Positions 3,232-5,454 of a stretch of DNA of 7,463 bases are shown in pieces. The DNA comes from Candidatus Saccharimonadota bacterium. Its GTDB lineage: Bacteria; Patescibacteriota; Saccharimonadia; Saccharimonadales; Saccharimonadaceae. The number at the start of each line of letters is the position of its first letter. The stretch's first letter is position 1. The translations under genes were made by a program, and so were the position numbers. The stretch is from assembly GCA_003545655.1 (NCBI GenBank), contig DODJ01000032.1, positions 1 through 7,463 of the forward strand, in the 5' to 3' direction. The notes below the pieces were generated by a model, which had not been told where the DNA came from, did no database searches, and saw nothing but the letters and a program-made list of their open reading frames with translations.

Positions 3232-3246
3232 TTGACTTAAAGTCAA
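3232..3246. promoter_or_regulatory. 15-bp palindrome at the divergent promoter
   Basis: TTGACTTAAAGTCAA is a perfect inverted repeat with 7-bp arms around a central A. The left arm is the -35 element of the rightward RNA promoter, and the same hexamer reads TTGACT on the minus strand toward dprA. It could be an operator for a dimeric regulator acting on both directions, or a two-way -35 element. The best minus-strand -10 at 17 bp (TAAAGG) is poor, so the dprA promoter itself is uncertain. Confidence 0.45.
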
Positions 3247-3260
3247 CAAGGTGCTATAAT
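3232..3260 (+). promoter_or_regulatory. Strong sigma-70-type promoter of the 3267-3655 RNA
   Basis: TTGACT (3232-3237), a 17-bp spacer and a perfect TATAAT (3255-3260). The expected start is about seven bases later, near C3267. That is the first base of a 9-bp helix pairing with 3564-3572, so promoter and RNA fold agree on the 5' end. This is the best promoter in the window. No normal gene begins behind it. Confidence 0.85.
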
Positions 3261-3499
3261 GAAAAACGATTGATACGGCGCACAAAAATAAGACGCTGCA
3301 TCAAGCACCTTATACCCCCTATTTCTAACGGTAGTTCATTTAATTGTACTGCCAATGTTAGGTAGTGTGCAAGGCGCTTTTAAAGTACCTACCCTCCACT
3401 TTTCTAGCTTTGGGTTCATCCCACGACAGCTTTGCACGCTTACTAATCCCTTTAACACCTTTTCACTTGTGGAAAGGCGACCCGTTTAAGGAGATATTC

Positions 3500-3562
3500 A
3501 TGGGTGACTATACAGTAGTGGTTGGGACTCTGCGAGGTTCAACCAGGCGCGCATCATCATAG
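3500..3562 (+). CDS. 20-codon small ORF with strong ribosome-binding site
   Basis: ATG at 3500 is preceded by AAGGAG (3488-3493) with six bases between, one of the best Shine-Dalgarno sites in the window. The peptide, MGDYTVVVGT followed by LRGSTRRASS, ends at TAG (3560-3562). It has no membrane segment and three arginines near its end. A short hydrophobic strand followed by G(T)LRxxSxR resembles the phosphate-binding loop at the start of NADPH-dependent FMN reductases (usually GSLRxxSxN). If the TAG were read through, the same frame would add 14 residues of helix-like sequence before TAA at 3604-3606. It may be a leader peptide of the surrounding RNA, a small protein, or the remnant of a flavodoxin-fold gene. 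The ribosome-binding site can be hidden by the upstream segment 3446-3455. Translation is plausible, the function unknown. Confidence 0.4.
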   Translation: MGDYTVVVGTLRGSTRRASS

Positions 3563-3618
3563 TTATCGATCGCGACGCTTCATCGAATATTCTCTCGGGT
3601 GGGTTAAAGGGTAAAATG

Positions 3619-3655
3619 GCGCCAGGTGATGCCCACCCTTACCTGGCGCTTTTTT
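3619..3655 (+). terminator. Intrinsic terminator of the structured RNA
   Basis: GCGCCAGGT (3619-3627) pairs with ACCTGGCGC (3641-3649), extendable by GA/TT to 11 bp, followed directly by six T (3650-3655). The loop contains CCCACCC (3632-3638), a perfect complement of GGGTGGG at 3597-3603. The upstream strand could therefore invade the loop as a pseudoknot or compete with the hairpin. This gives a possible way to control read-through into the pilin gene 56 bases downstream. Confidence 0.92.
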
Positions 3656-5028: not shown

Positions 5029-5454
5029 ATGGCCACTCTAGTTGTATCTCCCCTGTTCGGTGGGTTCTTCGAAATCCCTTTTTGGGTGCTGTACCTGGTG
5101 CAGTCGGTACTGCTTGCGCTCTTGCTGGTGCTCGTCCTCGTTGTTACTGTAGAGCGGCTCAATACGCTCGATGTTGACGCGACCGAGATGCAGGAGAAGC
5201 GGATATCGTTGAGTATCTGTATGGGGGCTGGCCTGGTTCTTTTCATGGGAGGTTTGGCGTACCTAGCCCTCTTCCTTATAGGGAATCCAAGCGAGCAGGC
5301 TGTGGCCATTGTCTTCGTCTTCTACTCGTGTCTGCTGTTGCTGTGGTTTTGTCGGCGCGTATGGGTGTTGCGGACACAGCACTCGTTTCGCGTGTACTAT
5401 AACCTTCCTTTGGCGCGAGTACGAGGGCGTACCTCTGCCCGCGATACCTTCTGA
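5029..5454 (+). CDS. Small membrane protein, three predicted helices, unknown function
   Basis: I do not recognise a family. The 141-residue product has three strongly hydrophobic stretches, at about 17-41, 60-85 and 90-108. The loop between the first two (about 42-59) is acidic and polar, with TLDVDATEMQEKR. After the third helix comes a basic tail rich in Arg (RRVWVLRTQ onward, ending near RARDTF-like sequence). By the positive-inside rule the C-terminus is probably cytoplasmic. The first helix is almost pure Leu/Val. ATG 5029 has GAAAGGG at 5017-5023 with five bases between. An in-frame GTG at 4999 lies inside the leader hairpins and would add a charged LAHLRERAR segment, so it is less likely. 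The gene stands alone between its own promoter and a UUCG terminator. It ends in TGA. Its location next to pth and der says little about its role. Confidence 0.75.
   Translation: MATLVVSPLFGGFFEIPFWVLYLVQSVLLALLLVLVLVVTVERLNTLDVDATEMQEKRISLSICMGAGLVLFMGGLAYLALFLIGNPSEQAVAIVFVFYSCLLLLWFCRRVWVLRTQHSFRVYYNLPLARVRGRTSARDTF

Follow-up and report, generated by a model that had tools for sequence, protein, structure and literature searches.

The window considered here, which is the whole stretch of DNA analysed (7,463 nucleotides), carries a unit of about 390 bases without a normal gene between a dprA gene and a gene with a pilin-type N-terminus. The question which this locus raises is what such a unit produces and whether its product is tied to DNA uptake, as the original prediction had supposed from these two neighbours, both of which were identified in the window by Pfam. 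The unit very probably represents a real RNA family, which is absent from Rfam and probably important. Our overall reading, to which we give an even chance, is that it is a stand-alone RNA gene new to Rfam, with a fold conserved order-wide, whose product would act in trans through C-rich, anti-Shine-Dalgarno-like loops on G-rich partners.

Predicted transcription unit and coding potential

The promoter-to-terminator unit of about 390 bases, placed at 3232-3655 by the original prediction, was confirmed, and its features are collected in Table 1. The promoter (TTGACT-17-TATAAT at 3232-3260) is present, has a TG extended -10 and matches the consensus at 11 of 12 positions; on its own it is unexceptional, since a scan of the region returned two promoter-like sites where 2.0 were expected in shuffles. 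Among 96 homologous loci a promoter was called in 91, with the TG in 90 of these 91 and at least ten of 12 consensus matches in 68, counts which are biased upward because the caller rewarded TG and TTGA with a bonus. Four of the five loci with no call have too short an upstream sequence, and the fifth (L150) has enough. At the 3' end, a hairpin (3618-3649) followed by six T lies where a terminator had been proposed, and it is missing from the scanner output because its loop of 13 nt exceeds the scanner limit of 8. A stand-alone RNA gene with promoter-like and terminator-like ends is thereby predicted, and its homologs are 251-410 nt long (28 homologs).

Table 1. Predicted features of the RNA gene, in window coordinates
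Feature	Position	Strand	Basis or remark
Predicted promoter	3232-3260	+	-35 TTGACT, 17-nt spacer, extended -10 TGCTATAAT
Palindrome TTGAC-N5-GTCAA	3232-3246		Overlaps the -35
Predicted non-coding RNA, about 389 nt	3267-3655	+	Start inferred 7 nt past the -10; end within the T run
P1 hairpin, UUGAU/AUCAA base	3270-3304	+	Covariation, 7/7 pairs compensated
L1 GCACCUUAUACCCCCUAUU, C-rich conserved linker, predicted single-stranded	3305-3323	+	Motif pattern in 79/93
P2 hairpin, CUAAC...GUUAG	3325-3361	+	GUUAG strand (3357-3361) common to P3x
P3x (3357-3361 with 3443-3447), extended by P3	3357-3447	+	Covariation, 16/16 P3x and P3 pairs compensated
P4, apical loop L2 with UACCCUCC (3390-3397), anti-Shine-Dalgarno-like CCUCC	3383-3401	+	Covariation, loop counts
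P5, 5' strand CCCUUUAAC	3448-3456	+	Covariation
P6 region, GCG...CGC outer pairs, inside P5	3547-3578	+	Approximate coordinates, by eye
G-box GGGUGGG, complementary to the P8 loop	3597-3603	+	Inferred pseudoknot
P5, 3' strand GUUAAAGGG	3603-3611	+	Covariation
P8 terminator hairpin, 13-nt loop GAUGCCCACCCUU (3628-3640), U tail	3618-3655	+	Stem covariation, loop counts

The claim that the unit holds no normal gene was upheld as well. In the five nearest homologs the 65-codon frame of the unit (3365-3562) stops after 40, 15, 7, 23 and 7 codons, and a conserved peptide product was rejected on this ground. Across the 28 homologs the longest ORF varies from 21 to 65 codons with differing start positions, and some of the homologs have similar ORFs, as expected from similar underlying DNA.

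Of the 91 homolog promoters, 42 have a palindrome over the -35, and the palindrome-promoter pattern was matched in 20 of 22 genomes. A regulon under this palindrome was considered and rejected, as outside the RNA locus the 22 genomes hold no more than two sites, where the palindrome is likewise combined with an extended -10 (G000:C24:5580-5608, minus strand, and G004:C3:116891-116919, plus strand). A comparison of the promoter with those of the genes for RNase P RNA and tmRNA yielded no clear pattern.

Conserved secondary structure

The 389-nt strand folds better than all of 100 shuffled sequences (z -5.87), and energy folding alone of one short homolog returned P1, P3x-P3-P4, P5 with its inner hairpins, and P8 (z -5.49). 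Conservation of the fold was assessed with two covariance models, R1 for the 3' part of the RNA and R2, a separate model, for the 5' part. Taken together, 51 of 52 tested pairs show compensatory changes, which agrees with the structured RNA originally proposed. In the R1 alignment (101 rows, nine of which were used in model building), 23 of 24 pairs are compensated against at most ten in slid controls, 97.3% of cells are paired, and the score is 0.455 against 0.137 in shuffled and at most 0.054 in slid controls. In the R2 alignment (94 rows, 31 of them used in model building), all 28 pairs are compensated against at most 19 in slid controls, with 93.8% of cells paired and a score of 0.662 against 0.211 (shuffled) and at most 0.125 (slid). 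These alignments lean to the given structure, a bias which the slid controls address just in part, and the cell counts are not independent events because many rows are related. Within the R1 set, the opposite-strand matches of L001 and L073 are echoes of true ones and were retained in the pair counts; the set of 96 used for promoters and synteny leaves out these two echoes and three contig-end copies (L098, L112 and L152), the 93 rows used for loop motifs leave out an opposite-strand R2 match (L133), and the 28-row alignment was drawn from the 30 first loci without L026, which lies at a contig end, and without L030, the second part of a split locus.

The long-range architecture differs from the one first proposed. 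The nine-pair helix (3267-3275 with 3564-3572) that was thought to close the molecule does exist in this sequence, but as a conserved element it had to be rejected: it is paired in only 103 of 243 cells over 27 homologs, or in 23 of 45 when just the five nearest are counted, and 3270-3274 sits in the local hairpin P1 instead. The long-range helix P5 (3448-3456 with 3603-3611) is paired in all 243 cells of the 27 homologs, and its covariation can be followed by eye, as CCCUUUAAC/GUUAAAGGG here becomes CCCUUUCAC/GUGAAAGGG in L014, CCCUCUAAC/GUUAGAGGG in L029 and GCCUUUAUC/GAUGAAGGC in L024. A predicted multi-helix fold, which compensatory changes have preserved in Saccharibacteria order-wide, is thus strongly supported. 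Its 5' part consists of P1, the linker L1, P2 and a long P3x-P3-P4 arm with L2 at its tip; in its 3' part, P5 closes the domain and P8 forms the end. Large additional insertions at the P4 arm were seen in four order-level homologs (L122, L103, L110 and L160).

The loops are conserved to a degree that their stems are not always. In the P4 loop (L2), CCUCC occurs in 91 of 93 rows while the surrounding stem varies, and the remaining two rows (L023 and L066) have CCUCC nearby. The pattern of L1 is unmatched in 14 of 93 rows, at least five of which (L105, L106, L126, L151 and L172) are cut, variant or misaligned. The P8 loop contains GCCCACC in 98 of 99 true matches, and a complement of this loop lies inside the P5 domain in all 99, as GGUGGG in 88, GGGUGG in seven and GGUGUGGG in four. 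In eight homologs this G-box is shifted 38-54 nt upstream of its P5-side position, into the P6 region, and in L094 the C-rich P8 loop is absent and the G-box is kept. A pseudoknot between the P8 loop and the G-box is therefore probable; it rests on complementarity and on the shifting box, because the P8 loop covaries with the G-box in no homolog.

The GUUAG strand can pair either upstream (P2) or downstream (P3x). Since P3x covaries, and since P2 and P3x are formed by separate strands in L139 and L170, these two helices may be alternative states in most genomes.

Distribution among Saccharibacteria

Conservation beyond the closest strains, the lack of which had been named as grounds for giving up the prediction, was found throughout the order. 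A plain DNA search of 61 relatives detected the RNA in 29. All 17 genomes of the genus, counting this genome itself, were among these, as were 12 of the 20 remaining family members, and the 24 genomes from other families gave no match. At E 0.01 or better, R1 matched 33 of 379 phylum genomes, among them all 32 sampled genomes of the order (24/24 in the family and 8/8 in its other families), a total which agrees with the unmatched genomes, as these, sorted by kinship, contain none from the order. Outside the order there was one match in 347 phylum genomes, a marginal one (E 0.0066), and none in the five genomes from other orders of the class. R2 matched 24 of the 379, every one within the order, and missed eight genomes of the family, which belong to genera g2, g10 and g11; the copies inspected from these genera (L023, L029, L066 and L087) have a remodelled 5' half and an L1 that lacks the C run.

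A wider search of the class with R1 matched 322 of 391 genomes; by row count these are 244 of the 250 family members and 78 genomes from other families of the order. Of its 69 misses, 20 are listed individually, and some misses reflect limits of the model, because G051, missed by R1, matches R2 at E 2.7e-18. Among the matches listed by name, most carriers are assigned to Ca. Saccharibacteria/Saccharimonadales, Microsaccharimonas or the TM7 oral taxa 348, 350 and 352, and three bear other labels, which are Chloroflexi, Parcubacteria and Paenarthrobacter. The first two of these are MAG contigs that carry the RNA (L097 and L099) and are perhaps misbinned Saccharibacteria, and the third (L116) is a pattern match only, which R1 did not confirm; it was the one locus without a match among 100 given to R1, the other 99 being matched. 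Most genomes have a single R1 match. Two were found in at least seven (G511, G540, G608, G610, G632, G633 and G714), which may reflect duplicate copies, mixed bins or echoes of a hairpin.

The RNA is probably important, and perhaps essential, because it is large and is kept by most of an order whose genomes measure about 0.6 to 1.6 Mb. The alignments and the structure could found an RNA family. Moreover, Saccharibacteria are described as genetically tractable in the part of PMC10633639 that we used, and, as far as the consulted parts of the two papers go, cultured strains have been studied by Tn-seq (Ca. Southlakia epibionticum, PMC10633639) and by RNA-seq (Nanosynbacter lyticus TM7x, PMC10768705), with which the role of the RNA could be quickly settled.

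C-rich loops and possible modes of action

The CCUCC of L2 resembles the anti-Shine-Dalgarno tail of the ribosome, and C-rich apical loops of the kind that characterise the sRNA sX13 are present in nearly all homologs. According to the relevant part of PMC3771888, sX13 of Xanthomonas has three C-rich loops and represses mRNAs with G-rich motifs near their translation starts independently of Hfq, and S. aureus RNAIII and an H. pylori RNA are compared with it in the same source; S. aureus RsaA and H. pylori RepG are also described, in abstracts of other papers, as sRNAs with C-rich loops. Like sX13, RsaA, RNAIII and RepG, the present RNA is structured and carries C-rich loops. Unlike them, it is order-wide and 251-410 nt long, and it has both a domain closed by the long-range helix P5 and a terminator that is probably pseudoknotted. 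We saw no sequence relation to sX13 and its kin. Its nearest functional analogue is sX13.

On this model, the strong promoter would make the RNA abundant and the RNA would act in trans, both of which are guesses from promoter and context. A pseudoknot between the P8 loop and the P5-adjacent GGGUGGG box would lock the 3' end, GUUAG would choose between P2 and P3x and might serve as a switch, and the exposed C-rich loops, above all L2, would base-pair to G-rich sequences around translation starts and restrict translation, working without Hfq as in the sX13 model. We commit to this sX13-like reading while holding it about level with a protein-binding scaffold, and the base-pairing mechanism as such is put forward tentatively, as something rather less than probable.

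For pairing below -10 kcal/mol we examined a 300-kb sample of a single genome, which gave 225 start regions. L2 reached this threshold in 16.0% of the start regions, in 8.9% of the coding controls and in 8.0% of the downstream controls; the best of 38 dinucleotide shuffles gave 17.3% at starts. The ribosome tail itself gave 17.8% at starts, 7.6% in coding and 8.4% in downstream controls, with a best shuffle of 20.0%, and this energy test has little power because the ribosome tail also fails to beat its shuffles. In the same 225 start regions, L1 and the P8 loop did no better than their own shuffles. When exact matches were counted, L2 (11.6%) fell under its best shuffle (15.1%), and L1 reached 21.8% of starts versus 5.8% of coding controls and 13.8% in the best of 20 shuffles, an enrichment which may come partly from promoter -10 and Shine-Dalgarno motifs near starts. 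The best loop-target matches, scanned by eye, revealed no target theme.

That the loop target signal is no higher in L2 than in shuffles is also what would be seen if the RNA were a housekeeping ribonucleoprotein component, in which the invariant loops are landing sites for a protein, for example one with a KH domain that prefers ACCC/UCCC, the RNA itself serving as scaffold or sponge and not as an antisense regulator. ACCC followed by a pyrimidine occurs in all three loops. Such a role, which we rate as a serious possibility at somewhat under even odds, would also suit an RNA that has a strong promoter type, folds elaborately and probably forms a pseudoknot at its 3' end, and that occurs, mostly as one match, in most sampled genomes of an order with reduced genomes. 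Against it stand the loss of L1 in some lineages and the fact that no gene for a protein partner is evident among the recurrent neighbours, which are topA, dprA, pth and der.

Returning to the base-pairing reading, its boldest extension would make the RNA an order-wide global controller of translation, that is, an abundant anti-Shine-Dalgarno decoy held in a rigid pseudoknotted frame, with the GUUAG switch exposing or hiding the decoy, in cells without SRP and 6S RNA. We consider this extension rather unlikely. The novelty, judged by Rfam and the literature searched, lies in the RNA family, and the base-pairing mechanism, if right, would be of a known kind.

Comparison with known RNA families

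The original prediction had recognised no known RNA class, and the Rfam search (release 15) supports it, since no match reached a gathering threshold and the best relaxed match in the window (E 0.55, 16.1 bits against a gathering cut-off of 43) is at chance level. Six diverse homologs had no match in the same release up to E 0.5, ARAGORN found no tRNA or tmRNA in the window, and the models of 6S RNA (RF00013), SRP RNA (RF00169), tmRNA (RF00023) and RNase P RNA (RF00010) did not match this RNA. In the open-access literature, searched at the level of titles and abstracts with supplements outside its scope, so that a prior mention is possible, there was no description of it, and word searches within the available text of PMC10768705, PMC8040213 and PMC10633639 found it unmentioned. 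The RNA is almost certainly a genuine family new to Rfam.

A strongly diverged member of one of the four known families just named is accordingly improbable. RNase P RNA and tmRNA are likewise structured, stand-alone and of similar length, but RNase P RNA occupies a distinct locus in 19 of 19 genomes, this one included (over the cut-off at G000:C6), and tmRNA is over the cut-off elsewhere in 17 of 19, falling below it in G024 and in the present genome (G000), whose assembly is 81% complete; identity with either was rejected on these grounds together with the lack of a model match here. A vacancy might be seen for the other two families, as neither 6S nor SRP RNA was found in the genomes searched. 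The 6S model had no match anywhere in eight genomes, although it is a weak probe which rings in just five of 14 control genomes. 6S RNA is, like the present RNA, a stand-alone RNA gene, but it forms a single long bulged rod, whereas the fold described here is a chain of several separate domains. SRP RNA, a housekeeping RNA that is likewise structured, has no match within the present RNA; one search found it in none of eight genomes, and in 22 Patescibacteria it gave two matches, neither credible (both E above 3). The RNA-binding domain of Ffh (PF02978) was found in none of these 22, versus 14 of 14 controls, which makes identity with SRP RNA unlikely. As a separate observation, the 22 Patescibacteria, having neither this domain nor credible SRP RNA matches, may lack SRP.

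Gene neighbourhood

Gene context was compared in the 96 loci, many of which end too early to judge, and in 27 longer stretches together with the window. The dprA gene is divergent and adjoins the RNA in 79 of the 96 loci, pth faces it from the opposite strand in 65, and topA, a name that follows the reading of the original prediction and no family search, lies upstream in 59. A same-direction pilin homolog is found downstream in one locus of 96, which is this genome alone. At nine loci topA adjoins the RNA and dprA has no match, and six of the 16 genomes tested have no DprA domain yet retain the RNA, several of the 16 having been picked because dprA was missing beside the RNA. The proposed link to DNA uptake did not survive these comparisons: a competence role is unlikely because the pilin neighbour is unique to this genome and the RNA persists without dprA. 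The RNA is a unit of its own in a conserved neighbourhood and no accessory of DNA uptake. In S. epibionticum, as reported in the consulted part of PMC10633639, dprA is outside the genes contributing to fitness.

The frequent divergent dprA and the palindrome over the -35 in 42 of 91 promoters would fit a competence-linked regulator that controls dprA from the shared intergenic region, but we judge this improbable, given the retention of the RNA at the nine topA-adjacent loci and in the six DprA-less genomes and the mere two sites of the palindrome-promoter pattern away from the RNA in 22 genomes. A cis-acting leader or attenuator, which the same-direction pilin-type gene directly downstream in the window could suggest even with a terminator in between, is very improbable and is disfavoured as a general role because synteny varies downstream (opposite-strand pth in 65 of 96 loci, same-direction pilin in one, and no constant same-direction gene in the 96), the entire RNA from P1 to P8 being conserved without that gene.

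In four of the six DprA-less genomes' loci inspected (L073, L089, L090 and L094), topA is the neighbour of the RNA. Elsewhere in the window, a 141-aa ORF without a Pfam match lies at 5029-5454 on the plus strand, and Pfam also confirmed pth, der and a pseudouridine synthase.
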